Source: Synechococcus sp. MIT S9220 (GTDB lineage: Bacteria; Cyanobacteriota; Cyanobacteriia; PCC-6307; Cyanobiaceae). From it: 64,000 bases of DNA. Location: positions 1,302,001-1,366,000 of the forward strand of contig NZ_CP047958.1 of NCBI RefSeq assembly GCF_014304815.1. Reading direction: 5' to 3'. Shown piece after piece: positions 1-38,369 of this stretch (the stretch's first letter is position 1; the number at the start of each line of letters is the position of its first letter). The translations under genes were made by a program, and so were the position numbers. Below the pieces are notes generated by a model. The model had not been told where the DNA came from, ran no database searches, and saw only the letters and a list, made by a program, of their open reading frames with translations.

Positions 1-686
<686 letters not shown>

Positions 687-734
687 CCTCTAAGGCCAGG
701 ACACCACTGGTTGCAACGGGTTTCAGCTTTCAAC

Positions 735-755
735 TGGATAGACAAGTGGATAGAG
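735..755 (+). repeat. Left arm-type repeat of the integrative element
   Basis: This 21-bp tract is itself two near-copies of tggataga. It recurs at 7350-7370 with two differences, in the same orientation. Its place between the att core and the recombinase start, with a partner inside the other end, fits arm-type binding sites for the recombinase. That role is inferred. Confidence 0.65.
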
Positions 756-783
756 TATCGGTATTACAGCCGGTGCTCTATCT

Positions 784-1998
784 ATGGGGTACATACATCA
801 GAGGAAGGGACGAAGCGGCTACTACGGCCAGCGGAAGGTTCCACCAGCCCTAAGGGAGCGCATAGGCACGAGCTGCTGGATGCGGAAACTTGGGGCGTCT
901 CTGGTTGAGGCCAGACGCAACCTGCCTCAGTTCTTGGCGGAAACAGATCTTCTTATTGCAGAGGCGAGGAGAGAGCTTGATCCAGTCCGGAAAATCAGGT
1001 CACTGCTGCCTGACTCTCTGAACCAAGGGGGAGCATTTGACGTGGTGGAGGAGTACACGAGGGTGCCTGCTCATATCGAGGTGGGTCCTGGTGAATGGAC
1101 AGAGAACCCTGAGTTCATCAAGTTGATGGAGCTGGTCCAGGCCAGACGAGATGGCAGTGACAAGCAACCCAGGAGCAAGGACGAGCTACTGCAGCTAGCA
1201 GCGTCACTGAAGCAACCAGCAAGGGCCACAGCAGACCTCTGGAACAGGCATCTCAGTGCATTGATGGAGAGCTGCGGGAAGGAGTCAATCACTGACATCA
1301 CAGAGGACGATGTCCTGAACTTCAGGGCACAGCAGCTAGAGCACATCACCATCAACAGCCTGAAGACCAAGCTCCGCTACATCAGGGCTCTTCTGGAGAT
1401 CGCCAAAGACCAACGGTGGATCGATAGCAACCCAGCCGACGGAGCCACAAAGCACATGGTCTCCAAGGTCAAGATCAAAGAGGTTGTTCGCCTGGACCAG
1501 GCAGACAGTCATTGGCAGGAACTACCCGAGCCTCAGCACCTGCTGTGGCATCTCTGCCGGTGGACTGGTGCCCATATCTCAGAGGTTGCGGGCCTGAAGG
1601 GAGATGACATTGACCTGAAGGAAGGTGTGATCAACATCAGACCCAATGAGTGCAGAGACCTGAAGAATCCATATCGACAGAGGCTTGTTCCAATCCACTC
1701 AAAGCTGCTGCCATATCTGAAGCAGTCGAAGGCAGACATAGACACCAAGGATGGCCTGGTCTTCCCTTGGGCTTACAACGCAGAGCGTGGACGCTGGTGT
1801 GAGGGGATCTCTTGGAAAAGGAAGCTCGGAGTCACACCCAAGGCGACAAGAGATTGGGCAGCATCCTGTCTCAGGGATCAGGGAGTAAATGAGTTCGTGA
1901 TTGGCAGGCTCTTCGGGCACTCACCCAAGACCATCACTGGTCAGTACGGAAGCGTTAGCCAGCAAGCATTAGCCGAAGCCTTAGAACTACTGTCCTGA
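784..1998 (+). CDS. Tyrosine recombinase / integrase, divergent active site
   Basis: A 404-residue site-specific recombinase that presumably integrates and excises the element at glnA. The N-terminus (YIHQRKGRSGYYGQRKVP) looks like the short arm-binding module of phage-type integrases. Residues about 145-225 are helical and fit the core-binding SAM-like domain. The catalytic domain is about 245-395. TGAHISEVAGL is the first Arg box, but the Arg is His264 (codon CAT at 1573-1575). RDLKNPYRQRLVPI holds the beta-strand Lys. PKATRDWAAS is the second Arg box, with Lys353 in place of the usual His and Arg356 kept. LFGHS supplies the second His, and Tyr388 in ITGQYGS is the likely nucleophile. It could be a diverged active enzyme or one inactivated by CGT to CAT. 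The family call is secure; activity is not. Confidence 0.92.
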   Translation: MGYIHQRKGRSGYYGQRKVPPALRERIGTSCWMRKLGASLVEARRNLPQFLAETDLLIAEARRELDPVRKIRSLLPDSLNQGGAFDVVEEYTRVPAHIEVGPGEWTENPEFIKLMELVQARRDGSDKQPRSKDELLQLAASLKQPARATADLWNRHLSALMESCGKESITDITEDDVLNFRAQQLEHITINSLKTKLRYIRALLEIAKDQRWIDSNPADGATKHMVSKVKIKEVVRLDQADSHWQELPEPQHLLWHLCRWTGAHISEVAGLKGDDIDLKEGVINIRPNECRDLKNPYRQRLVPIHSKLLPYLKQSKADIDTKDGLVFPWAYNAERGRWCEGISWKRKLGVTPKATRDWAASCLRDQGVNEFVIGRLFGHSPKTITGQYGSVSQQALAEALELLS

Positions 1999-2202
1999 TC
2001 TAAATAATGCTTGGACCAAGCCATTAGGTCCACTCAGGATGACCTACAAGGGGCCTTAAATCTTCTTTTGATGTCGATATACCTAACAGCTAGTTAAGAC
2101 CTATTGCAGAGCCTTGCAGACGCCTTAGAGAGAACTCTAGGAGACAATCGCCAACGCAGGGTTACATCAAAGCCCTGTTAATACACAAACACTAAACCAA
2201 CC

Positions 2203-2349
2203 ATGAAGTACATGCAACAGGCTCTCATCGAGGGCATGATCCAGAGACGAATGAAGAACACCAAGGAAGACAGATCAACAGCTTGCTTTGAGATCAAGAA
2301 GATCCTGGTCCAAAGGCTGGCTGATATCGAAGACAGCAGACGAGGCTGA
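2203..2349 (+). CDS. Small hypothetical protein, 48 aa
   Basis: A short frame beginning MKYMQQALIEGMIQRRMKN and ending EDSRRG. It is charged and predicted helical, with no recognised domain. It is the first open frame downstream of the recombinase, and its size and charge would suit a small DNA-binding accessory protein such as an excisionase, but no helix-turn-helix can be claimed. No strong ribosome site precedes it. Confidence 0.4.
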   Translation: MKYMQQALIEGMIQRRMKNTKEDRSTACFEIKKILVQRLADIEDSRRG

Positions 2350-2956
2350 TCGATCTCGAAAAAAGTTCCTTGCCCGCGCACATAGAATCACTGGGACAGT
2401 CAGAGGAAAAGGTTCAGGCTGATACAAAGCAGCTCTGAGAGGGTGAAAAAGAGACCCTTGATCTCCCCCTATCTTCCTCCCCTTCCTCCCCCTCTTCTCC
2501 TCCTCTTCTCCCCCCTAAAAAAGAGAGAAGAAAGAAAGTGACATAAAGAAAGAAAGAAAGAAGAGAGAAAAAACACCCCCCTCATCACCTCCTCATCACC
2601 CCCTCCGAACCCCTCCATCTGACCCCCTCTGTTTATTGTTATTTCATGTTTGTTTTTTTATTTGGATTGAAGGTCTTTTGGATTGGTCCCAATGACGGCT
2701 TGTGCATGGACGCCGAAGGCATAGAGCACAGACAGTCTTAACTCAATGATCTTGATGAGAGAAATAAAAACAATCATCATCATCATGTCTTTGGTCTCCC
2801 GTGTCTCCTGTGTCAGAGCACGTACCGTGCCTGAACACAACGAACACAACTAGCGATGGGAACAGACAAACAAGAAACTAAGAACCACCATCACGATTCA
2901 AGGGACCACGAAGGCAAGGGGAAGTGTTCTCCTGCAGAAGCATCTAGAGTGACTAG
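2350..2956. repeat. Non-coding stretch with alternating pyrimidine and purine tracts
   Basis: No convincing gene is seen here. At 2462-2515 the plus strand is almost purely C/T. At 2517-2572 it is almost purely A/G, built on repeated aaag and gagaa units. From 2573 to about 2635 it is C/T-rich again. Adjacent mirror-like pyrimidine and purine tracts can fold as an imperfect hairpin or as triplex DNA. The rest, 2640-2956, is ordinary AT-rich intergenic sequence leading to the next gene. Confidence 0.6.
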
Positions 2957-3253
2957 ATGAAAAATCAATCAATCAAGACCCTTGTCTTGCTAAGCGGTCT
3001 ATTGCTAACCACAGCACCTGCCAAGGCTCAGGACAGAAGCCAAGAGGCGTTTTGGTACGCATACAACATTGGGGCGGGAACCTCTATTTGCATGGCAGCC
3101 AGAGAAGGAAAGGTTCCCAAAACCTATCCAGCGGAGTACATGCAAGCCTTTTATAGGGATGCAGAAGCAGACCCAGATCTACTGCCGTACAAAGAAAGTT
3201 TTATCAAGGCCTCTTTGGAGCTAAAGAAGATCTGGCCCGGCTGCTACGAATAA
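2957..3253 (+). CDS. Small exported protein, 98 aa
   Basis: An N-terminal signal peptide is clear: a Lys-containing start, a hydrophobic core TLVLLSGLLLTTAP and an AKAQD cleavage site near residue 24. The mature part is about 74 residues with two Cys (CMAAREG and the terminal GCYE), which could form a disulphide. It resembles the small secreted or periplasmic unknowns common in marine picocyanobacteria, but no domain is recognised. It stands alone, with more than 200 bases of non-coding sequence on each side. Confidence 0.75.
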   Translation: MKNQSIKTLVLLSGLLLTTAPAKAQDRSQEAFWYAYNIGAGTSICMAAREGKVPKTYPAEYMQAFYRDAEADPDLLPYKESFIKASLELKKIWPGCYE

Positions 3254-3466
3254 GTCCATGTTCTGTCCTAAAGCTAAATAAATCAAAAGAACATCATTCA
3301 GCTCAATCAGCTTGTGTCTCTGATGTCTTCTCTACGGTGTCTCTGTGGCCCTACAACATGCCTTGACTAGGTGTCAGGTAGTCTGACATCTAAAGGATAT
3401 TTAAGACACCTTATAGGCGATCCTGAGAGGAGTGGACCAGGCTTAATAAGCTAGACCTGATCATAT

Positions 3467-4278
3467 CTAAGAGGATAGCAGTAGAGTCAATTGATACTGC
3501 TCACCTAAATCCATATTCGCCTCGAACTCCTTCATCCAATTAACAACCTTCTCCAGTTCGTTAGTAGTGGCATTGTGTTTCAGCCTGTTGGTCGCCAGTT
3601 AATAACGGCGATATTTCCAGGCACATAACCGAGTTCGGGAATAAATTTATCTAGCGACGGACTGTTGTCTTCGATGCCTTTACCTTTTCCCTGTCGGCCA
3701 GGTTCAATCTTGATACCAAGCACCGGACAAAACTCAGGAACCACCACGTCCTCGATTGAGATGGTAAATGGAACGCCTTGTTTCTTTGCCTCTAATCTCC
3801 GTTGAACAAACAACTTTCCTGAAGGCGTCTGTGATTTACCATGACAACCAGAATTAATCTTCTGTAGACATCCGCAAGACTTAGTCAAGCCTCTTATCAA
3901 GTTGTAGACAGGTACATCCCTTTTGGTTCCACAACTACACCGACACTCAGCGACATAGTAGGAATTACCACCTGGAGTCATAAGTCTACGGGTATAACCA
4001 ATGACTTTCCACTCACCAAAGGTCTTGCCTTTAATATCAACGGCTCTCCTATGAAGTCTGTTCATGCACTTAGTGCATTGAGTTGAGTCTTTTACTTTAT
4101 TGATAGAGCTGATGCCATTTGAACCGACGTATCCGCAGGTGAGGCATTCGTTTAAGTAGTACGGCTCTCTCATATGACCGTCAGAATTGACGCCACGATT
4201 CAGATCCCTTTTAAGCAGCTTGCGGTTGCCGATTGTCTCTCCTGATCGATCTTTAAATTGACCTCTCCTTGGCATCAA
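3467..4278 (-). pseudogene. HNH-type endonuclease, frameshifted near its C-terminus
   Basis: The main frame (4278 to 3580) encodes 232 residues. It has a Cys pair at 45/48 with another at 68/71, then a phage-type zinc segment (GKTFGEWKVIGY, CRCSCG at 112-117, SCGCLQ at 135-140). The HNH core follows: FCPVLGIKIEPG, SPSLDKFIPELGYVPGNIAVINWR. In phage HNH enzymes this motif continues WRANRLKxxAT. Here the frame ends after WRPTG, but a shift of one base at about 3589-3594 reads TNRLKHNATTNELEKVV and on to a stop at 3467. A one-base deletion, or less likely a programmed frameshift, splits the gene. Such genes are typical of phages and islands and may act in homing. Confidence 0.8.
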
Positions 4279-4330
4279 TCCTCCTGTTCGTATTACGAGG
4301 TGCTGTCACATGCCTTTCATGCTCGGTCTA

Positions 4331-4363
4331 TAGAGCTCATTGGGTCATCACCCAGTTGAGCTA
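4331..4363. promoter_or_regulatory. Hairpin between divergent genes
   Basis: An imperfect inverted repeat: agctcattgggt pairs with acccagttgagct (one bulge, one wobble) around a catc loop. It lies between the start of the minus-strand nuclease (4278) and the plus-strand gene at 4429, so it could be an operator or a 5' leader structure. It lacks a T-tract on either strand, so it is not a normal terminator. Confidence 0.35.
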
Positions 4364-4428
4364 TTTCCTCACGTGCTCTTTGGTCCCAATGGGGGATCAC
4401 CTAGAGCAGCGGCCAGTTCTATTCATGG

Positions 4429-4869
4429 ATGCAAGAGCTGTTCGATGTGGGGCCTATGGCCGAGATGTATCTGGTCACGTTGAGCGAAGGGTTTGGCAAC
4501 GACATAGAGAAGCAACGATGGATGTTGGATCAGATGTGCAATCGAGCTGAGTATCTGGGTAAGGCAACCTGCACCACCATGAACAGCACTTGGGGGGAGA
4601 AGTCGAGTCTTATTTCAATGCTGGTCAGGCTTTATGGCGCTACGGGCAGGGACTATCACGGACTGAAGGAACTACTGGAAGAGAAGATCAAAGAGGCAGA
4701 GGCAAACCGCTCAGAGGAAGAAGTGGCTCATGCCGATCAGCACTTCAAGGACAGGAGGACCTTCCTTGAAACTGAGGCCATCGCCCTAGAGGAAAGGTTC
4801 GAGAAGAATCCAGAAAGGGTTCAGCTCAAGGACATGAAGGCTCGGAGGTTCTTCAAGCCACGGAGGTGA
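4429..4869 (+). CDS. Hypothetical protein, 146 aa
   Basis: A soluble, highly charged protein. The first 70 residues (MQELFDVGPMAEMYLVTLSE onward) hold Met/Leu-rich helices. Residues about 75-140 are a long Glu/Lys/Arg helix likely to form a coiled coil, and the end is basic (ARRFFKPRR). No family is recognised. Internal ATG codons (PMAEMY) are possible alternative starts, since no clear ribosome site precedes 4429. It lies inside the glnA element and is oriented with the recombinase. Confidence 0.6.
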   Translation: MQELFDVGPMAEMYLVTLSEGFGNDIEKQRWMLDQMCNRAEYLGKATCTTMNSTWGEKSSLISMLVRLYGATGRDYHGLKELLEEKIKEAEANRSEEEVAHADQHFKDRRTFLETEAIALEERFEKNPERVQLKDMKARRFFKPRR

Positions 4870-4966
4870 GCAATGGAGAACTGACAGAAGTTCTTGATTC
4901 TATTTATTTGTTCAATTGACAGAACGTTTGTCTTGAATAGAGTCAAGCACTACTCGGCTTACAAGA

Positions 4967-5326
4967 ATGAGTAAATCCAATACATTGCTTTCCACCAAGC
5001 AATTATCAATCATTACTTTTTTTGCAGCAGTATTGGCACTTGTGTTGTCATCGTCAAGCTCGCATCCCCTTATTAGTTTTATTATTTGGATCATTCTGCT
5101 CTTTAGCTTTTTCTCTATCTCTGTTTTGGTGATTACTCTGATGGCAAGAGGTGCAAAAGGCATTCCTTCTAAATCACCAACAACAAAAAGAAGAAACTCA
5201 TATATGGACGAGAGCGATAGATTGAATTATGAGATGTATGAGTATGAGCAAGACAGTCAGGATGATCGATGCGACTCAGGCAGTAGTGATTCAGGCAGCA
5301 GCAGTTGTGACTCAAGCTCTGACTGA
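4967..5326 (+). CDS. Small membrane protein with Ser/Asp/Cys-rich tail, 119 aa
   Basis: Two hydrophobic segments (about residues 14-29 and 34-58) form a probable helical hairpin in the membrane. A short basic stretch (TKRRNSY) and an acidic, low-complexity tail follow, the tail built of Asp, Ser and Cys with DSGSSDSGSS near the end. Tails of this sort occur in small cyanobacterial membrane proteins without a settled function. Codon use is AT-richer than in the genomic core, in line with acquisition on the element. Confidence 0.65.
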   Translation: MSKSNTLLSTKQLSIITFFAAVLALVLSSSSSHPLISFIIWIILLFSFFSISVLVITLMARGAKGIPSKSPTTKRRNSYMDESDRLNYEMYEYEQDSQDDRCDSGSSDSGSSSCDSSSD

Positions 5327-5548
5327 ACCTGGATGGGAACAGGCACAAATTCACTAGCTGAAAACCCTAGTGTTTGTGTTCTTTTTCCGTGAGAATTGGG
5401 CTTAATTCTGTCTGGCATTAACTGCATCGTAACGGTCTAACTAAATTTGACTGACCATGCAATAGTGATGCACAGATTTAAGGCCATTTAGATCTAACTG
5501 CCGAATCCAATTTGTCGCCTACGCTGGCGCTCCGGCGAGCCTTAAGCG

Positions 5549-5585
5549 GACTGCTCCACTCAAGGAATAGCCGGCATAAGCAGTC
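5549..5585. other. Hairpin 5' of the structured element
   Basis: Perfect 7-bp arms, gactgct at 5549-5555 and agcagtc at 5579-5585, enclose a 23-base loop that contains gccggc. It sits directly upstream of the larger branched fold at 5598-5770 and may be part of the same transcript or DNA structure. Confidence 0.45.
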
Positions 5586-5597
5586 ATCTCGCTCCGG

Positions 5598-5770
5598 TGT
5601 GTGTTGGTTGGGGCGTCAGATGGTGGGGTGTCCGCATTTCTCCCAACGAACCAGACGCCGCTAAAGCTGCTTGGTTCAGTTGGACCGAATGACGCCAACA
5701 ACAAGCAAGCTTGTGTTGTCGGGACACTTATGGAACCCACCATCATCTTCCGCCAAGCCAACCAAACACA
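5598..5770 (+). ncRNA. Candidate branched structured RNA or folded DNA element
   Basis: A closing stem is built from tgtgttggttgg near 5600 with ccaaccaaacaca (5758-5770), ggcg with cgcc, gatggtggg (5619-5627) with cccaccatc (5736-5744), and gtgtcc (5628-5633) with ggacac (5722-5727). It encloses two hairpins. One is ccaacgaacca (5643-5653) with tggttcagttgg (5672-5683). The other is acaacaagc (5698-5706) with gcttgtgttgt (5709-5719). Together this is a three-way junction about 170 nt long in an otherwise AT-rich intergenic region. Open frames cross it on both strands but have no domain, and the GC and pairing pattern argue for structure rather than coding. Strand and transcription are unknown. 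It does not match tmRNA, RNase P RNA or 6S RNA as I know them. Confidence 0.5.
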
Positions 5771-5929
5771 ACAACTTCGCTATGACGGAGTAATGATAGA
5801 TCCGCTTCATTGTCCAAAGCAAGCTACAAAGAAGAATTGCTTTGTACGGTTTTGTAAATAAATATTGACCCAAAAAGCATCGCCTGAAGTCGTGGCTATG
5901 CGTGTAAATGATTCGCCAAATATGGAATC

Positions 5930-6325
5930 ATGCATCAGCACTCGACTTCAGCAAAGAAAGCTCTTTGTACTGCTCTAGCTTTTGCGCCTATAAGTCTTTT
6001 GGGTAGCGCCTCTATCGTAATGGGTACTGCGAGTCCTTCTTTTGCCGACTCACAAAATCTCAACACAAATACCTATGAAAACTTGAATTACGCCAACCCT
6101 ACAAAGTGGGAAAGGCCCAGTTCTGCTGACACAGCAGGCGCTAATTCACAAAACCTCAACACAACAACCTACGAAAACTTAAACTATGCCAATCCCGCCA
6201 AGTGGGAAAGGCCCAGTTCTGCTGACACAGCAGGCGCTAATTCACAAAACCTCAACACAACAACCTACGAAAACTTAAACTACGCCAATCCTGCCAAGTG
6301 GGAAAGGCCTAGTCAAGTCAATTAA
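5930..6325 (+). CDS. Exported tandem-repeat protein, 131 aa
   Basis: A signal peptide (hydrophobic core ALAFAPISLLGSASIVMG, cleavage after SPSFA near residue 39) is followed by three tandem copies of a 32-residue unit. Each unit begins SQNLNTxTYENLNYANP and continues KWERPSSADTAGAN; the third copy is cut short and ends WERPSQVN. The Asn/Tyr-rich repeats have no known domain to me. The last two units are nearly identical at DNA level, which points to recent duplication. It has its own tandem terminators downstream and lies inside the glnA element. A surface or periplasmic location is inferred from the signal. Confidence 0.75.
   Translation: MHQHSTSAKKALCTALAFAPISLLGSASIVMGTASPSFADSQNLNTNTYENLNYANPTKWERPSSADTAGANSQNLNTTTYENLNYANPAKWERPSSADTAGANSQNLNTTTYENLNYANPAKWERPSQVN
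6050..6316 (+). repeat. Three-copy 96-bp tandem repeat inside a gene
   Basis: Units start at 6050, 6146 and 6242, an exact 96-base period that keeps the reading frame. Units 2 and 3 differ at only a few positions over their shared length, so copy number may vary among strains. Confidence 0.9.
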
Positions 6326-6370
6326 CGATAGAGCGGAACTTATTCGTCTATTTCGAGGGATAAATTTTTA

Positions 6371-6432
6371 GCCTTGTCATGTATTTACAAGGCTTTCCCC
6401 TCTGCAAAGAAGGCCTATGAGGCCTTCTTTTT
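6371..6432 (+). terminator. Tandem intrinsic terminators after the repeat protein
   Basis: Two hairpins follow the stop codon. In the first, gccttgt (6371-6377) pairs with acaaggc (6387-6393), followed by ttt. In the second, aagaaggcc (6407-6415) pairs with ggccttctt (6421-6429), followed by more T. The second is a strong Rho-independent terminator. Confidence 0.85.
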
Positions 6433-6581
6433 GTATTATTAACCCATCGATCCAAGAATTCATAGGTTAAAAACTATTGCCTGGATCTGCAAAGACATAA
6501 GGATTTAGCCATTCCTTCACCAATGAACTTTTAAGGACTTTTCAGCACACAATGAAGCAAGTCACGCCAGTTCCTTCGGAC

Positions 6582-6788
6582 CTATGACTTCATCCTTCCT
6601 CTACGTGATCGGGTTTTGGCTATTGCCTCATAGCCCTTGATGACTTCTCCAGATCGATAGAGCACTTCGTTGTGTCTTTCCTCGCTGGGTATCTGGTGAG
6701 CTTCCCACTTATGACGGGCAAGGACCAGCCCTGACAATGCATGAGCCCCAGGATCGAACTCACAGCACGGGCATCGGAAACCGGACAT
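6582..6788 (-). CDS. Small Cys/His protein, possible zinc finger, 68 aa
   Basis: From the ATG at 6788 the product begins MSGFRCPCCEFDPGAHALSG and continues LARHKWEAHQIPSEERH. Cys6, Cys8, Cys9 and the His residues near 26 and 30 could bind one zinc ion in a C2H2-like way. The C-terminus is basic (KTRSRRGRMKS). The frame stays open upstream to 7043 with other ATG codons (for example 6860), but the upstream residues look less protein-like, so I prefer the short form. Small zinc-binding proteins of this type are common in phages and islands. It is transcribed toward the element centre. Confidence 0.5.
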   Translation of the reverse strand: MSGFRCPCCEFDPGAHALSGLVLARHKWEAHQIPSEERHNEVLYRSGEVIKGYEAIAKTRSRRGRMKS

Positions 6789-7349
6789 TGAATATCTCCT
6801 CTGGGTGGCTGTACTGAAGAGGTAGATCCCCACTTGAGCAGGGTCTTGCCTTTGGGACATAACCCATCCGAGTGACTTCTCAGATCGTTTGCACTTCTCT
6901 TGACAGACAGACCCTAAAGAATTGGAAATAAATTTTTGAATGGGTACGTGTACCTGCCGCTGGCTGAGCTTCCCCCATAGGCGCCAGCCACTAAAAAAAG
7001 AAGAGGGCACTGGCACCACCATCAAGGAGCAAGGTAGAGCCACCCTTTGAGGTCATTAGGGGAGGGCCAAGGCTGCCACTTGCAGGCTCAGCAGGCGCTG
7101 GGACCAGTCATACCAATGGTGTTCACAAGAGAACGGATCTAAAGCACGTCAGGAATACAGTCAGTACCACTGAAATTGAGCAGATATGCCTACCAATCAG
7201 GAGTGGTCTGGCATACCCACGGCGACAAGCCAGTGATGGCCTGGGTTTCGAGGCATTCAACAGGCTCCAGCCGCTGTCTTCATTCCTATTTTTGTGCCCA
7301 TCTGTCTGCCGAAATCCTTGGATATTGACTGGTCCAGACCCACTGAAAG
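6789..7349. other. No recognised gene at the right end of the element
   Basis: Apart from an in-frame upstream extension of the 6582-6788 gene (to 7043), I see no credible coding sequence, RNA or repeat here. The tract ends at the right arm-type repeat. Confidence 0.4.
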
Positions 7350-7370
7350 TGGATAGACAGGTGGATAGAT
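7350..7370 (+). repeat. Right arm-type repeat of the integrative element
   Basis: It is the same double tggataga tract as at 735-755, with two differences and the same orientation. It lies 83 bases before the right att core. See the left copy for the proposed role. Confidence 0.65.
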
Positions 7371-7432
7371 AATCCGTATCGAGCTTACTCCAAATCCCTT
7401 TCCACCACTCAATCTCACGCTGTCGAAGACTA

Positions 7433-7454
7433 CGTGATGTACTACGACGCTTGA
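7433..7454 (+). other. attR, right attachment site (displaced glnA 3' end)
   Basis: A second copy of the glnA C-terminal codons. Read in frame, the sequence before and through it gives EDYVMYYDA and then a stop. The bases after the core should be the original chromosomal glnA end, because the native glnA terminator follows 31 bases later. Confidence 0.8.
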
Positions 7455-7484
7455 TTGATCATTTATCGACAGTTTCTGTTGTTC

Positions 7485-7511
7485 AAAAAGGAGCTACGGC
7501 TCCTTTTTTTT
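7485..7511 (+). terminator. Intrinsic terminator, original glnA terminator
   Basis: aaggagc pairs with gctcctt around a tac-g loop, and eight T residues follow. Its place directly after the displaced glnA end shows where glnA transcription stopped before the insertion. Confidence 0.85.
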
Positions 7512-7543
7512 GGGCCATCGTGAGCACTTAGCGACAGGGCACT

Positions 7544-7816
7544 TCAGGCGTGCCTTAACTGAGCCATGGCGCTGTCATGCAGTTGCTTGGCATGCAGACG
7601 GCGTCGAGCACACACCTGTTGCTGAGCTAGAGCGCTGCGTTGATCAAGCCGATCAGGATGGCCTTCAACTTGAGCATGGGCTGCTTGCTGCCTCAGCACG
7701 TCATGGGCATGGTGCTCCGCCCAGGCCAGGAATTCTGCGGCCGCACGCTGCCGGCGCTCCAGCACATTGCCCGAATACATCGCCATGGTCCCGGCGGTGG
7801 TGATCTCAACGGCCAT
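7544..7816 (-). CDS. Hypothetical protein, 90 aa
   Basis: The ATG at 7816 is preceded by aggag at good spacing. The product begins MAVEITTAGTMAMYSGNVLE and is rich in Ala, Gln, Arg and His in long helices (RRQRAAAEFLAWAEHHAHD). No family is recognised. The helical, His-rich composition suggests a small soluble protein. A longer frame reaches 7933, but its N-terminal part (CERCCGVLPHRSRK) does not look like a protein. Confidence 0.6.
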   Translation of the reverse strand: MAVEITTAGTMAMYSGNVLERRQRAAAEFLAWAEHHAHDVLRQQAAHAQVEGHPDRLDQRSALAQQQVCARRRLHAKQLHDSAMAQLRHA

Positions 7817-7966
7817 CGAGAGCTCCTGAAGTACCTGAGTCAATTCTGTAGCAACGGCTACCGTTTTTACAGGGGCTTCACATAACTTTCGTGATCGGTG
7901 GGGCAAAACCCCACAACAACGTTCGCAATCCATTGAAATAAGGCGGCTTGGATCTCAATCCTTTTC

Positions 7967-9052
7967 ATGGCGCCCAGCTTCACTGAAATCGCTTACCGGA
8001 CCATGCAACAGGGCCGCAGCCTTGCTGGCCTGGTCCACAAGGAACTGAGCACCAAAGTCATGGAAGTGGTGGCGCCTGATGTGGTGCCTAAAACGGAACC
8101 TGTTCCCAGCGAAATGATGGACGCGCTGCGTCAGTCGCTGGATGAGCTGCATCAGCGTGACTGGCAGGATTCTGAATCAGGGATTTACCCCCAGTCCCTG
8201 CTGTTTGATATCCCTTGGTTGGAATGGGCTGAACGCTATCCACGCGTGTGGCTGGACCTGCCTTCCAACTGGGCCAGAAGGCGTGCCAGAGACGTCAAGG
8301 ACATTCCTGATCTGGCCAATCGCGATCTCTATCCCGACTATTACCTCCAGAATTTTCACCATCAAACCGATGGTTACCTCAGCGATCACTCCGCCGAGCT
8401 GTACGACCTTCAGGTCGACATCCTGTTCAATGGCGCAGCTGATGCCATGCGGCGCCGGATCCTCCCTTCACTGCAAAAAGGGTTGAAGCGATTTGCAGAT
8501 CGTGCACCGGGAAGTCTGCGCATCCTTGATGTCGCAACCGGCACGGGCAGAACATTGCATCAGATTCGTGCTGCGCTGCCGCACGCCACTCTCGTGGGAG
8601 TGGACCTTTCCGAGGCCTATCTGCGCCAGGCCAATCGCTGGTTGAACCAATCCAACAAACCGCTGGTGCAGCTGGTTCAGGGAAACGCAGAGCGGATGCC
8701 TTTCGATGACGCTGGCTTCCAGGCCATCACCTGCGTGTTCCTGTTTCACGAACTGCCAGCCGATGCCCGGCAGGCAGTGCTTCAGGACTGTTACCGCCTG
8801 CTTGAGCCTGGCGGGGTTCTGGTTTTGGCCGATTCAGTGCAATTGAAGGATTCGCCACAGTTCGACGTTGCCATGGACAATTTCAGACGCGTTTTTCACG
8901 AGCCCTACTACCGCAATTTCATCAGCGATGACATTGACCAGCGCCTCAAAGATGCTGGCTTCAGTGATGTGCAAGCCGAATCTCATTTCATGACCAGGGT
9001 GTGGACAGCCACGAAGATTGCATCGCCTCAACACAGTGATTCCCTGACATAG
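7967..9052 (+). CDS. Class I SAM-dependent methyltransferase, 361 aa
   Basis: The Rossmann-fold SAM site is plain: ILDVATGTGRTLHQI (motif I, about residues 185-200), LVGVDLSEAYL, GNAERMPFDD (motif III region), and LEPGGVLVLADS (motif IV/VI). This layout is typical of UbiE/type 11 methyltransferases acting on small hydrophobic molecules. The N-terminal 160 residues are a cyanobacterium-specific extension (SLLFDIPWLEWAERYPRVW). The substrate cannot be told from the sequence. It begins after a short divergent region shared with the small gene on the other strand. Confidence 0.9.
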   Translation: MAPSFTEIAYRTMQQGRSLAGLVHKELSTKVMEVVAPDVVPKTEPVPSEMMDALRQSLDELHQRDWQDSESGIYPQSLLFDIPWLEWAERYPRVWLDLPSNWARRRARDVKDIPDLANRDLYPDYYLQNFHHQTDGYLSDHSAELYDLQVDILFNGAADAMRRRILPSLQKGLKRFADRAPGSLRILDVATGTGRTLHQIRAALPHATLVGVDLSEAYLRQANRWLNQSNKPLVQLVQGNAERMPFDDAGFQAITCVFLFHELPADARQAVLQDCYRLLEPGGVLVLADSVQLKDSPQFDVAMDNFRRVFHEPYYRNFISDDIDQRLKDAGFSDVQAESHFMTRVWTATKIASPQHSDSLT

Positions 9053-9107
9053 ACGCTTGCAGGGGCACAGCAAACCCATAGGGTGCAAGCACTCAGGGAC
9101 TCCGTCC

Positions 9108-9422
9108 ATGTCGAATCCTTTTCGGATCCGCTGGTTGCGGGGATGGACCTTTCAGATCGTGTTCATGGAAGGCAAGGTTCAAGTTGAAGCTCAAGGTTTT
9201 GGGATCTGTCTGCGAACAGCACTGAATCCCGGTGAAAGCCCAACTGCTGCTGCGGATCGTCTAGTGCTCGCGGAGGATCGCCGTCGTCGTGCCCTTTATC
9301 AGGCCTGGATCAAAGGTCAAGCCCTGCCTTCCGCCAACGAAGGCCAGCCTCACCCAGAAGAGCGGCTTCAGGATGCACCGGATTCCCTTGTTGTGGTCGA
9401 TAGCGCAGCAGTGGCAGCCTGA
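9108..9422 (+). CDS. Hypothetical cyanobacterial protein, 104 aa
   Basis: The start MSNPFRIRWLRGWTFQIVFM is chosen over an upstream ATG because it begins the region with protein-like composition. The first half looks like a small beta domain (FQIVFMEGKVQVEAQGFGI), followed by an Ala/Asp/Arg helix (PTAAADRLVLAEDRRRRALY) and a loose acidic tail. No domain name is recognised. It follows the methyltransferase by 55 bases on the same strand. Confidence 0.7.
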   Translation: MSNPFRIRWLRGWTFQIVFMEGKVQVEAQGFGICLRTALNPGESPTAAADRLVLAEDRRRRALYQAWIKGQALPSANEGQPHPEERLQDAPDSLVVVDSAAVAA

Positions 9423-9425
9423 GGC

Positions 9426-9686
9426 TCAGCGAGTCAGCCACCACCCCAACACCAAAGCTGGTCCTCCCCAACGCAGAGCCCTCCAGAAACGCTGACCACG
9501 CTCTGGTGTGAGCAGCCAGTTGAGAGCTTCAGGGTCCGCCTCCACTAATTGACGAAGCAGTCGACGCTGTTGAATTCGACGGATCGAGCGTCGATCCCTC
9601 GCCTCCCAAGATCTGGGCTGATAGCGGAGAAGAGAGCGCAGTCCTTGCAAACCTCCCCGACTGTGAAGCTGCCTGTTCACCACCAC
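9426..9686 (-). CDS. Small basic membrane-anchored protein, 86 aa
   Basis: Starts at one of three successive GTG codons near 9686. The body is strongly basic (DRRSIRRIQQRRLLRQLVE), with a short hydrophobic C-terminus (GGPALVLGWWLTR) that may sit at the membrane. No family is recognised. It is convergent with the preceding gene, with a three-base gap. Confidence 0.6.
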   Translation of the reverse strand: MVVNRQLHSRGGLQGLRSLLRYQPRSWEARDRRSIRRIQQRRLLRQLVEADPEALNWLLTPERGQRFWRALRWGGPALVLGWWLTR

Positions 9687-9736
9687 CAGCGATCACAGCA
9701 GTCAGGATAGAGAGGCCCCGCTGATCCAACGCCAAC

Positions 9737-9985
9737 GTGTCCGCGAAAAAATGGCCAGAACAGGCGATTGAACAGGCCTTGTCTCTGCATCAGAGCCTCA
9801 GTATCAGTGATCGTGAATGGCACAGACTCAAAGCCGATGCGGATCGACGCGGAGCAGAATTGCTGGCTGCGGCACTGGCGCAGCTGCTGCAAAACGGACG
9901 AAATCATGATGTGGAAGCCTTGACTCAGCAGGCTCTGGGCTGGATCAGGGGAGAGCTGAAAGACCCTGGCTGCCCTCGGCACTGA
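9737..9985 (+). CDS. Small conserved-looking protein, 82 aa
   Basis: GTG start. The helical product contains LSISDREWHRLKADADRRGA, then ELLAAALAQLL and a terminal ELKDPGCPRH. The Asp/Arg-rich helices and compact size look like a conserved cyanobacterial unknown (I believe of the DUF6439 type, not verified). Its 3' end overlaps the convergent kinase gene by 41 bases. Confidence 0.65.
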   Translation: MSAKKWPEQAIEQALSLHQSLSISDREWHRLKADADRRGAELLAAALAQLLQNGRNHDVEALTQQALGWIRGELKDPGCPRH

Positions 9986-10415
9986 TGGCCCGTTGACTGG
10001 ATCCAGGCCGGCGGCAGGCCAACTGCACCCTGTTGCCTCGACGGCTCCAGCGGATGTCGTCAAAACACTGATGCATCAGAAACAGACCACGCCCTTGATT
10101 GGCATCGACTTGATCCGGCAAACAACCCTGCCTGGCATCACTCGAGAGACCATCGCCTTCATCCTGGATCTGCCAAATCAACCAATTCGGCGTGAGAATC
10201 CGACGGATCCGCAGGCACTTGCGAGGGTCTCCCGCGTTGCCGTGACGCACGGCATTGACCAAGGCTTCCTGAAGACCCAGTTGCAAGCGACACGAGGTCT
10301 CATTGCAGTCAACAGGTTCCAGCAACAGCTCCATCAATGGACTGAGCTGAAAGGTTGACGGAAGGATGAAATCAGCCCACCGAAACGAAGGTAGAAATCG
10401 GCTGAACATCAGCAC
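9945..10415 (-). CDS. RsbW-like ATP-binding protein (anti-sigma kinase type)
   Basis: A stand-alone GHKL ATPase of 156 residues. LQEALVNAVRHGNAGDP is the N box, IQDEGDGL the G1 box, and NQGRGLFLMHQCFDDI the G2/ATP-lid region. Proteins of this kind bind and phosphorylate STAS-domain antagonists and hold sigma factors or other partners in partner-switching. A STAS protein is present in this window at 50208-50507, but there is no operon link. The first 25 residues (MLMFSRFLPSFRWAD) look atypical, so the start may be internal. Confidence 0.85.
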   Translation of the reverse strand: MLMFSRFLPSFRWADFILPSTFQLSPLMELLLEPVDCNETSCRLQLGLQEALVNAVRHGNAGDPRKCLRIRRILTPNWLIWQIQDEGDGLSSDARQGCLPDQVDANQGRGLFLMHQCFDDIRWSRRGNRVQLACRRPGSSQRAISAEGSQGLSALP

Positions 10416-10475
10416 TGTTTCATCCTTTTCGACCTTAACGGCCTGCTGAAGTTCTGCCAGAGGAATCCGACGGTG

Positions 10476-11189
10476 TCAGGACCTGCTCGCCAGACCGGGA
10501 TGCTGAAGAAGCGCATCCATCAAGCGGACACCCCTGAGCTGGTTCACCAATGGCATGTGTCCTTCTGGTGCATCCATGCACCACTGAAAACTGCCGGGAT
10601 AACGGGTCCAGACACCCTCGTTCTTCCAGCCGATCTTCGGCCAGAGCCTGTCGTAACGACCGCCGAGTGCACTGAGCAGTCGAGATTGCACCGTAAATCC
10701 GAAACGTCCCTGGGAGTAGGCGATCCAGAGCCTATCGATGGTGGTCAGATCCAGCGGTTTGATCGAAGGGACTTCGCTGAAATACACGTATCCCCGTTCC
10801 ACCGCCTGCTCACCGGCCAGCTGACGCAGTGCGCAACTGGTGAGGCGATCAGCCTCCTCAAACTCTTCCTTCAGCAAGGCACGTTGGAGATCTGAGTAGT
10901 CGATCCCGCAGGACGACGGCATCTGGAACCAACCGCCGGAGACACCTGGAATGGCGTCCAGAGTCTCGGGGTGGTGACGCTGAAGAATCTGCAAGATCCA
11001 GCCCGCTCCCCAGTCATCACCCTCTGGGGAGTAGGCCTTGAGGGCAACATCTGCTTGTCCTGAGAGCTGCTCTGAGACCTTTTCCAGCGCTGAAGCCGTG
11101 GAACGCTTCTGACGCGATGATCCCGAAACCAGTCGGTCCAGCAACTGATCAATGCCGAGTTGTGTGGAGGGAGGTCGTCCGGAAAGCAT
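10476..11189 (-). CDS. gun4: GUN4 tetrapyrrole-binding protein
   Basis: GUN4 binds protoporphyrin IX and Mg-protoporphyrin and stimulates magnesium chelatase in chlorophyll synthesis. The 237-residue protein has an N-terminal helical bundle (SSRQKRSTASALEKVSEQL) and a C-terminal GUN4 domain. That domain includes DYSDLQRALLKEEFEEADRL, PLDLTTIDRLWIAYSQGRFG and WKNEGVWTRYPGSFQW, the usual conserved blocks. It is divergent from mnmH, with a 40-base gap between starts. Confidence 0.93.
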   Translation of the reverse strand: MLSGRPPSTQLGIDQLLDRLVSGSSRQKRSTASALEKVSEQLSGQADVALKAYSPEGDDWGAGWILQILQRHHPETLDAIPGVSGGWFQMPSSCGIDYSDLQRALLKEEFEEADRLTSCALRQLAGEQAVERGYVYFSEVPSIKPLDLTTIDRLWIAYSQGRFGFTVQSRLLSALGGRYDRLWPKIGWKNEGVWTRYPGSFQWCMDAPEGHMPLVNQLRGVRLMDALLQHPGLASRS

Positions 11190-11229
11190 GGCGATGTGCC
11201 GGCACCGACTGGCTCAGCATTGGCCCACT

Positions 11230-12285
11230 ATGTCAGGCATGGGCAACTGCATCGTGACCGGTCTCAACAGCTTCCGCACGGCGCAGGGAACCATCGTGGA
11301 TGTGAGAACACCCTCGGAATTTGCTCAAGGTCACTGGCCAGGCGCTGTCAACATCCCCCTGTTCACCGATGAACAGCGTCATCTGGTGGGCCTGAACTAC
11401 AAGCAAGAGGGTCGACTCGCAGCGATCCAACTCGGTTTAAAGCTCTGCGGTCCCTCTCTGGCCGAGTTATCGATTGCACTCACAACGGCAGCTGCTGGAC
11501 CCGCAAATCCCTTGAGGATCTACTGCTGGCGTGGAGGAATGCGGTCCAACAGCATGGGATGGCTGGCTGGCCTGAGCGATCACCCCGTCATGGTGCTGGA
11601 GGGGGGTTACAAGAGTTATCGCCGATGGGTGCTGGAGTGCTTCGAGCAGACTTGGCCCTTGCGGGTGCTCGGGGGCAGAACAGGGACTGGCAAAACGGAC
11701 CTGCTGCTGGAGCTGAACCAACAGGGCGTTGGTGTGATCGATCTTGAGGGTCTCGCCAATCACCGCGGCAGCAGTTTCGGCAATCTGGGGCTGCCGCCTC
11801 AACCGACCAGCGAGCACTACGAAAACAAACTGGCGGAATGCCTGGAGGTTTTGCGCCACACAGGAGTGCAGGAGATCTGGCTAGAGGCCGAAAGCATCCA
11901 GGTCGGCCGCTGCAGGATTCCCAAAGGGCTGTTTGATCAGATGCAAACGTCTCCAGTCCTGGAAATCCAGCGCAGTGACCAAGAACGCGTGGAGCGACTT
12001 GTGAAGGTTTACTCGTGTCATCAGCGGGCCGAACTGCGGCAAGCCACAGAACGGATCCAGAAACGCCTTGGTCCTCAGCGCACACGACAGGCGATTGAAG
12101 CGATCGACTCCCAGAACTGGGCTGTGGCCTGTGAAGCCATGCTCGATTACTACGACAGCTGTTATGACCGTGAACTTGAGCGTTCACCAGCGAGATCCTC
12201 GGTGAATCTGCAGGGACTCACCAGCGAGCAAGCAGCCAGACTGCTTCTGGATCAAGGGCACGTCATCCCTGGGATCTCCAACTAA
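11230..12285 (+). CDS. mnmH: tRNA 2-selenouridine/geranylthiouridine synthase MnmH
   Basis: MnmH (SelU, YbbB) modifies 2-thiouridine at the wobble position of some tRNAs to 2-selenouridine by way of a geranylated intermediate. An N-terminal rhodanese domain carries VDVRTPSEFAQGHWPGA and the active-site loop YCWRGGMRS. A P-loop ATPase-like domain follows, with GGRTGTGKTDLLLEL and NHRGSSFG. I chose the start MSGMGNCIVTGLNSF because the family begins just ahead of the rhodanese fold. The open frame extends upstream to 11152, into the gun4 region. The protein is 351 residues long, normal for the family. Confidence 0.92.
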   Translation: MSGMGNCIVTGLNSFRTAQGTIVDVRTPSEFAQGHWPGAVNIPLFTDEQRHLVGLNYKQEGRLAAIQLGLKLCGPSLAELSIALTTAAAGPANPLRIYCWRGGMRSNSMGWLAGLSDHPVMVLEGGYKSYRRWVLECFEQTWPLRVLGGRTGTGKTDLLLELNQQGVGVIDLEGLANHRGSSFGNLGLPPQPTSEHYENKLAECLEVLRHTGVQEIWLEAESIQVGRCRIPKGLFDQMQTSPVLEIQRSDQERVERLVKVYSCHQRAELRQATERIQKRLGPQRTRQAIEAIDSQNWAVACEAMLDYYDSCYDRELERSPARSSVNLQGLTSEQAARLLLDQGHVIPGISN

Positions 12286-34260: not shown

Positions 34261-34450
34261 GGATGGTTCCTCGAAGCAAGTTCAGGTCCCCGTTCCTTGG
34301 CCTGAATCGAACTGCGCCTCTCCGAAAAGAGGTGAACGTGTTGGTAGCTGTTGCTACAGACGTTTTATAAGACAACTCTCAAGGGGTTGGTCGTTCGAGT
34401 GGATACAAAACGGACCAATTCCCCCTGCACCGGCAGCTCCACTGGTCTGC

Positions 34451-36130: not shown

Positions 36131-38218
36131 TCAACCGTTGACGGATGCTGCAGGTTCGGAGCTGGTGTCCGAGGTATAGCCGGCACAGCGCTGTTGATCG
36201 AGATGTTGGATGTGTCGACGTTCGGTGTAATACAGCTCCTGAAAACGCAGGGCTTCAGCGTTGAGGTCGTCGAACATGGTGTGGATGCGCTGCTCCATAT
36301 CGACTTCCAACTCAACAGCAGGAGCTGACTGCTCCTCTTTCTCCTGCTCGATTAAGACGGCAATGCAACGCTCCAGAGTTTGCAGACGCTGGCCAGTCCA
36401 GGCTTCCAGCAAATGCCGGCAACGTTTATTGCTCTTCTGACGTTCAAGCATCGCTGCCGTTCCACGCAGCTGATCCATTGGCCGGGCCAAGGCAACACGC
36501 TGCAGTTCATCCGGTTCGAGCAGTGGCGTCAGACGCGTCACCAGATCACTGTTGTCCAGGAGGAGCTGATCTGTGAGCAGTCGGGGCAGATCGAGGTCTG
36601 CCAATTCGTCGCCGCGATCCTCACCGCGACAGATCGCTTCCAGCCGCACACTGCCGAGATTGCCTTCCTCCAGATCCGTGATGCCAGACCACAGCAGACG
36701 GTGATGCTGCAGCGCGAAATCCTCGAGCTCCCGACTCCTCAGTTCCTGGCGGATGCCAGCCCGATGGGACGGGCAATGCAAATAGAGCAGAAGGATCTCA
36801 GCTTCTGAACGTTCACGCTGGGAAGCTTCGCCAGCCTTCTCATGTCGGCTGGAGCGGCCGTGCCAGCGCTGACCTTGAACCTGCTGGCGGAGATCGTCTT
36901 CAAGCTGCAGAGCCAGACGGCCCTGCCCACCGCTGAGGCGCTCGGCCACCTGCTGGATGTAGTGGGTGCGGATGGCGGATTGGGGAAGCTTGCCCAGCAA
37001 CGCAACCAGCGAAGCCACCGAACGTTGAAACTGATCTGCCTTACTGAGATCCCTTCCCTCAAGGACCTGTTCGATCTGCCAGTCGAGCCAGAGCGGCGCC
37101 TGATCCAGCAGAGCCCGATAGTCACCGGCGCCATGCTCCTTGAGAAATTCATCGGGGTCCTTGCCGGATGGAAGGTGAAGGACCCTCAACTCCAGTTGTC
37201 CCTGGAGTGCCAGCTGCTCCACCTCACCGATCGCTCGGTTGGCGGCTCGCACGCCGGCGCCATCGGCATCGAAATTCAGAACAATCCGCTTGCCATCGCT
37301 GCATCGGCACAGCTGGGTGATCTGTTGACTGCTGAGAGCGGTGCCCAGAGAGGCCACCGCATTGGTGACACCTGCAGCATGCAGGGCAATCACATCGAAA
37401 TAGCCCTCCACAACAACAGCACGATCGTCCTTGCGGATTGCGGATGAGGCCCGGTCAAGTCCGAATAGGTGCTTGCCCTTCTCGAACACCTCCGTTTCAG
37501 GTGAGTTGAGGTACTTGGGCTCACTGCCATCGAGGCTGCGGCCACCAAAGCCGATCACCCGCCCCTGACGATCACGAATGGGAACAATCACCCGATGGCG
37601 GAAGCGGTCATAAAAACCGTTCCCTCCTTTACGGGGAACCACCAGTCCTGCTGCCTCGAGCAGTTCTGGAGACAATCCCTCCACTTGCTGCAGATGCTTC
37701 AGCAGGCCATCCCACTGATCAGGTGCATAACCCAGCTCGAACTGATCGAGGGTGGTTTCGCTCAGGCCGCGGGTCTCACGCAGATAGCGAAGTGCATCAG
37801 CACCTGCGTCTGTTCTGAGCTGTGCACGAAACCAGCCGGAGGCCAATGCAAGCGCTCGGTGCAGCTTGTCGCGGCGAGACAGCTGTTGTTTGAGTTTCTC
37901 CTGCTGCGGACCATCGACGGTCTCCACCGGCAGTTGATATCGGCGGGCAAGGTCAAGCACCACCTCGCTGAAACTCTGACGTTGAAACTCCATCAGGAAC
38001 TTGATGGAGTTTCCTCCTGCGCCGCAGGAGAAGCAGTAATAGAACTGCTTGGCGGGAGACACCGTCATTGACGGCTTGCTGTCGTCGTGGAACGGACAGA
38101 TTCCGACGAACTCACGACCCTTTTTCTTGAGCACCACGTGCTCACCAACAACGTCCACGATGTCGGCGCGTTCCTTAACGGCCTCGATGGTGCGTGGGTG
38201 TAGTCGGGGACTGACCAT
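36131..38218 (-). CDS. dnaG: DNA primase
   Basis: DnaG makes the RNA primers for replication. The N-terminal zinc-ribbon reads CPFHDDSKPSMTVSP and YYCFSCGAGGN (CHCC ligands). The catalytic core has the primase block DRFRHRVIVPIRDRQG and the TOPRIM region (VVVEGYFDVIALHAAG, and NFDADGAGVRAANR with the acidic metal ligands). The C-terminal helicase-binding region is longer and divergent, as in other cyanobacteria. The start MVSPRLHPRTIEAVKER is chosen because it leads straight into the zinc domain; the frame extends upstream to 38341. Confidence 0.95.
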   Translation of the reverse strand: MVSPRLHPRTIEAVKERADIVDVVGEHVVLKKKGREFVGICPFHDDSKPSMTVSPAKQFYYCFSCGAGGNSIKFLMEFQRQSFSEVVLDLARRYQLPVETVDGPQQEKLKQQLSRRDKLHRALALASGWFRAQLRTDAGADALRYLRETRGLSETTLDQFELGYAPDQWDGLLKHLQQVEGLSPELLEAAGLVVPRKGGNGFYDRFRHRVIVPIRDRQGRVIGFGGRSLDGSEPKYLNSPETEVFEKGKHLFGLDRASSAIRKDDRAVVVEGYFDVIALHAAGVTNAVASLGTALSSQQITQLCRCSDGKRIVLNFDADGAGVRAANRAIGEVEQLALQGQLELRVLHLPSGKDPDEFLKEHGAGDYRALLDQAPLWLDWQIEQVLEGRDLSKADQFQRSVASLVALLGKLPQSAIRTHYIQQVAERLSGGQGRLALQLEDDLRQQVQGQRWHGRSSRHEKAGEASQRERSEAEILLLYLHCPSHRAGIRQELRSRELEDFALQHHRLLWSGITDLEEGNLGSVRLEAICRGEDRGDELADLDLPRLLTDQLLLDNSDLVTRLTPLLEPDELQRVALARPMDQLRGTAAMLERQKSNKRCRHLLEAWTGQRLQTLERCIAVLIEQEKEEQSAPAVELEVDMEQRIHTMFDDLNAEALRFQELYYTERRHIQHLDQQRCAGYTSDTSSEPAASVNG

Positions 38219-38369
38219 CGAACCATTCTGCGAGAAACCGCGCGTCCCGTCGATCGCAATTGCTGCTTCGAGCTCAAGACGATCCAAACAACGGTCGGTA
38301 ACCATGAACCAGGGCTCGATCAGGAACAGCTCCGGTGACATCGTTGAGAACTAGCGTGCAGACCGATGA

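Follow-up and report, generated by a model that had tools for sequence, protein, structure and literature searches.

A stable branched fold in a glnA-inserted element of Synechococcus sp. MIT S9220: perhaps the leader of the next gene, perhaps without function

Introduction

What is a long, highly paired sequence doing inside an integrative element? The question is raised by a stretch of 64,000 nucleotides from Synechococcus sp. MIT S9220 (here called the window, part of a single-contig genome of 2,424,175 bases, with genes that suggest a marine picocyanobacterium), in which an element inserted in the 3' end of glnA contains such a sequence at 5599-5769. An initial annotation suggested that it could be a regulatory or silencing RNA, or a folded single-stranded DNA recognised by a transfer or recombination enzyme. 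The branched fold is real and rare, not unique. Its function is unproven: it is perhaps the leader of the next gene, and perhaps it has none. Among the titles and abstracts listed in searches on tycheposons, glnA integrase islands and structured RNA in cyanobacterial integrative elements, none describes either the element or the structure. The features discussed below are collected in Table 1.

Table 1. Features of the glnA element and of the region around the branched fold, in positions of the window.
Feature	Position	Strand	Evidence or remark
Integrative element, 6.8 kb, in 3' end of glnA	665-7450	+	A copy of the glnA tail at each end, 665-682 and 7433-7450, 17 of 18 bases identical
Tyrosine integrase, 404 aa	784-1998	+	Pfam PF00589, E 1.3e-8; PHROG 1, E 5.1e-33
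HNH-type endonuclease	3580-4278	-	PHROGs 3322 and 374
Element ORF	4429-4869		46% identical relative near integrase genes of another genome
Terminator-like hairpin with T-run, after ORF 4967-5326	5335-5388	+	Fold of 5335-5400, z -2.11, 6/200 shuffles as stable; inverted repeat I1
Upstream hairpin, 7-bp stem, 23-nt loop	5549-5585	unstranded	Not above chance
Outer bulged stem of branched fold	5599-5633 with 5722-5769	unstranded	32 pairs, MFE fold
Internal hairpin 1	5635-5691	unstranded	MFE fold
Internal hairpin 2	5693-5721	unstranded	MFE fold
Tiny side hairpin within outer stem	5731-5739		MFE fold
Hairpin pairing start codon of ORF 5930-6325	5884-5951	+	68 nt, z -5.37 with 0/200 shuffles as stable, z -4.82 in another run
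ORF of 131 aa with a signal-peptide-like start followed by three repeats, each about 32 aa long	5930-6325	+	ORF list; 96-nt repeats
Terminator-like site after ORF 5930-6325	6406-6430	+	Terminator scan, 1 found against 2.3 expected in shuffles

The glnA element and its integrase

In two close relatives the insertion site is empty: the end of glnA (98% identical in G303, 94% in G300) runs straight into the sequence that here follows position 7433 (96% identical in both). Immediately within each end, the element carries GTGGATAGA-type repeats in tandem with a spacing of 12 bases, at 734 and 746 on one side and at 7349 and 7361 on the other. Besides the integrase, the HNH-type endonuclease and the ORF at 4429-4869, the element ORFs are without a clear family. 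No relaxase, replication initiator or packaging protein was named among the nine of them scanned with Pfam and PHROGs.

The 3' end of glnA is a hot spot for insertions. In genome G289 the site is occupied by another, different element about 17 kb long (L071-L072), whose ORFs match Terminase_6C, DUF3854 and an integrase domain. At 7385-7412, just within the right end of the element studied here, 28 bases resemble the end of a tRNA gene, and 26 of the 28 are identical to a stretch of G028.

Relatives of the integrase give some match in 55 of 300 genomes, the closest (46-49% identical) being found in G216, G225, G256, G101 and G222. These closest integrases are not beside glnA, as judged from flanks of 1.5 kb.

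Structure and stability of the branched fold

The minimum free energy (MFE) fold bears out the branched structure first described, with 171 nt in which a bulged stem closes two hairpins. As plus-strand RNA it reaches -75.5 kcal/mol (z -5.39), as minus-strand RNA z -5.18, and with DNA parameters z -5.52; in each case none of 200 shuffles (dinucleotide shuffles for the plus strand) is as stable. The outer arms alone, with a neutral linker between them, give z -4.82, and hairpin 1 alone (5634-5692) gives z -3.74 (0/200 shuffles as stable). Hairpin 2 alone (5692-5723) is weak and not significant (z -1.5, 15/200). The stretch that adjoins the fold upstream has z -0.03 when taken as 5480-5600 and z -0.33 when taken as 5480-5598. 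The "perfect" hairpin described just upstream of the fold is at chance level (z -1.66, 12/200). G-U pairs make up 4 of 67 pairs on one strand and 4 of 65 on the other, and both strands fold equally well, so the sequence is silent on the strand and on RNA versus DNA. The higher G+C content ascribed to the region holds locally but not more widely: 5599-5775 (0.537) exceeds 5330-5548 (0.452) and 5776-5930 (0.394), while the host flank at 7455-12000 is richer still (0.573).

How unusual the fold is within the window was ranked over 3192 windows of 177 nt each. It comes third after correction for G+C, and first after correction for dinucleotides, the latter in a practical tie (-4.85 versus -4.81) with a window at 37981. 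It is absent from the 12 best of a coarser first scan in 60-nt steps. The competitor sits in a 736-aa ORF (36131-38341), a DnaG-like primase to judge from its sequence. Within this ORF, 37921-38097, which overlaps the competitor, has z -6.41, and the segment 37921-38160 folds as strongly as 5599-5769. Folding stability alone therefore proves no function for 5599-5769, since a coding stretch can equal it.

The strongest minus-strand outlier of the coarse scan is a different place, 2401-2630, where a polypyrimidine tract is followed by a purine tract. Its positions 2609-2627 are 89% complementary to 5611-5629 of the branched fold.

Protein-coding potential

The statement that the region holds no credible protein stood up to Pfam and PHROGs, both empty for the two longest ORFs through the fold, 5601-5861 (plus strand) and 5519-5761 (minus strand). 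Codon scores of three ORFs through the fold (z 2.6, 1.4 and 2.6) fall within the range of 1.35-5.22 of 24 ORFs picked as unlikely genes; this score separates genes poorly and is thus a weak test. At E up to 0.1, ORF 5601-5861 had matches in 7 of 111 family genomes and ORF 5519-5761 in 17 of 111, the own genome included each time. The other six (E 0.01-0.09) and the other sixteen (E 0.011-0.095) were taken as chance, and both ORFs were rejected as hidden proteins. ORF 5601-5861 had zero matches in phages and viral contigs.

Search for relatives and known RNA classes

A covariance model, R1, was built from one sequence (two identical rows) and hence finds near relatives only. It matched the own genome alone, both among 31 genomes of the genus (1/31) and, with stricter filters, among 400 of the family (1/400). 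Within the own genome it found one place, matched on its two strands; a miniature inverted-repeat transposable element, which requires several copies, was rejected on this ground. The suggestion that the structure might recur beside other recombinases failed when R1 was run on seven loci with related integrases in six genomes, where the best match (E 0.05) was a short plain hairpin. Since it is absent from all seven, the fold does not generally accompany integrases of this type. Scanning L036-L040, L042 and L048, but not L041, for stable folds yielded outliers, two of which were inspected closely and rejected: that of L038 is a pair of terminator-like hairpins, and that of L040 is a stretch within a long ORF.

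Searches with blastn in 300 family genomes matched three, the own genome and two with 31 bases each. The match in G227 (to 5697-5726) covers hairpin 2 only, and its surroundings fail the model (E 0.97); that in G261 (to 5816-5846) is a bare run of about 31 bases. Both were judged to be chance. When the query was lengthened to 4280-7440, matches appeared in 5 of 400 genomes; those in the four besides the own one are short pieces outside 5599-5775. The fold stretch had no match in phages at E 1e-5 and none in plasmids at E 0.01, where six records appeared at E 10, all near E 9. Hairpin 2 alone gave 38 phage records, all at E 0.2 or worse, with pieces of 20-24 bases in the best 20 of the 38. Pattern searches of viral contigs returned 0, 1 and 0 stretches, the single one a bare 19-base match, and a pattern search of genome contigs returned 0. 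Apart from the two matches of about 31 bases, these genomes and collections yielded no homologue of the branched fold.

The initial annotation could not assign the structure to a known RNA class, and Rfam agrees. At the gathering score, Rfam 15 has two matches in the whole window, both elsewhere, and it has none in 5350-6000 at E up to 5. An Rfam match places a glutamine-II riboswitch at 34281-34341 on the minus strand.

The downstream gene and a candidate 5' leader

The gene that follows the fold at 5930-6325 probably encodes a real protein, because its repeats differ mostly at synonymous positions. Synonymous and non-synonymous changes number 7 and 4 between repeats 1 and 2, and 6 and 4 and 3 and 0 in the other comparisons; the expected synonymous share is 0.21. 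No relative of the protein was found: of 300 family genomes 1 matched, the own genome, and phages and viral contigs gave none. A Pfam match to TiaS_FLD (E 3.1e-6) was taken as a repeat artefact, as no single stretch passes alone.

Structured 5' leaders of the thermosensor or riboswitch type hide start codons. On the coding strand, the significant hairpin at 5884-5951 likewise pairs the start codon of the gene. The explanation tentatively preferred here, possible rather than probable, is that 5599-5769 forms the upstream portion of a leader RNA, long and folded, that spans about 5590-5930 on the 5' side of the gene at 5930-6325, whose product would be a secreted repeat protein. A single transcript would cover 5590-6430, and the leader would keep the start codon closed, or protect the message, until some signal or partner opens the start codon. 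Several observations are consistent with such a leader. The branched fold is more stable than its shuffles, as is the whole of 5590-5965 (z -5.33, 0/100 shuffles as stable), in which the final 45 nt upstream of the gene contribute to the second significant hairpin, and the gene itself looks real. Terminator-like features on the plus strand bracket the region and the gene: the site at 6406-6430 lies downstream, and the weak hairpin at 5335-5388 would set the region apart from the preceding gene. The latter is not listed by the terminator scan, which has a loop limit of 8.

Against a leader, the promoter scan found no promoter-like site in 5390-5598, and the scans for promoters and terminators do not exceed shuffles in the number of sites. 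A distance of 155 nt separates the fold from the start codon, the equal folding of both strands leaves nothing to mark the plus strand as a functional RNA, and equally strong folding is seen within an ordinary protein gene. Neither a homologue of the fold nor a relative of the downstream protein was found beyond the own genome. The arrangement resembles start-codon-hiding leaders in two respects, a hairpin at the start codon and a branched fold upstream of it, both on the coding strand of a gene that is likely real. It differs from them in the missing Rfam match and conservation, in the distance of the fold and in being known here from sequence alone. A regulatory RNA role of the fold is possible, though unproven.

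Alternative explanations

Almost as likely as the leader is a fold without function, which would be an inverted duplication in decay, or a self-complementary run arisen by chance, within an unconserved part of the island and under no selection. The DnaG-like coding segment of the same 64 kb speaks for this, as do the few G-U pairs and the missing strand preference, which would be expected of a DNA inverted repeat, and the lack of conservation in the 31 genus and 400 family genomes. Chance fits less well with arms and a hairpin 1 that are each significant alone beside a stretch (5480-5598) at z -0.33, or with the first rank among 3192 windows after dinucleotide correction.

It is unlikely that the fold is an independent small RNA encoded by the island, on either strand, and acting on other transcripts. 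A branched fold without a protein would suit such an RNA, and in Prochlorococcus MED4, 9 of 21 ncRNAs are located in genomic islands, according to PMC2518516. Like 5599-5769, these island-borne ncRNAs (Yfr series) are intergenic and folded. They were detected by expression, however, whereas 5599-5769 is a sequence prediction with no relatives. Its ends also lack promoter-like or terminator-like sites, Rfam is silent even at the loosest threshold, and the searches gave no homologue.

Quite unlikely, too, is a single-stranded DNA site of the element itself, such as a start of replication, transfer or packaging. The position within a mobile element, the symmetry of the strands and a fold equally strong with DNA parameters would all agree with it. 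Yet the nine scanned ORFs name no relaxase, replication initiator or packaging protein that would use such a site, and the fold is absent at the seven loci with related integrases. A recombination site of the element's own integrase is itself unlikely because both the glnA core and the GTGGATAGA flank repeats are missing from the fold. The core, sought in 600-7600 with up to 5 mismatches, occurs at 665 and 7433 only, and the arm repeat, sought in 5549-5775 with up to 2 mismatches, does not occur.

Recombination sites that work as folded single-stranded DNA are among the closest known systems. In integron attC sites, the half sites RYYYAAC and GTTRRRY flank a hairpin. Like attC and the attP of CTX phage, the fold has a long bulged branched stem and lies in a mobile element with a tyrosine recombinase gene; unlike them, it has neither a pair of attC half sites nor Xer-type arms, and it lacks the sites of its own element's integrase. 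In 5501-5800 a single half site was found (GTTGGAC at 5679) and no pair, and XerC and XerD arms had 0 matches in 5549-5775 with up to 3 mismatches in 11 each, so both candidates were rejected. Nothing positive was found in favour of the silencing RNA or the transfer site proposed at the outset. An intrinsic terminator, that is, a hairpin followed by a T-run, was dismissed, as the scan of 4800-6500 lists only 6406-6430.

Conclusions

If the fold is incidental, it is a useful caution that the folding of a single sequence says little about function, a coding stretch in the same 64 kb being its equal. It is very improbable that the locus represents a new class of branched leader RNA which, in a glnA-inserted satellite-like element, controls a secreted tandem-repeat peptide as a signal-gated island product of picocyanobacteria. 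Should the leader explanation hold, the fold would be a control switch for a secreted product of a mobile island, in a group in which, according to PMC2518516, roughly half of one strain's ncRNAs are in islands.
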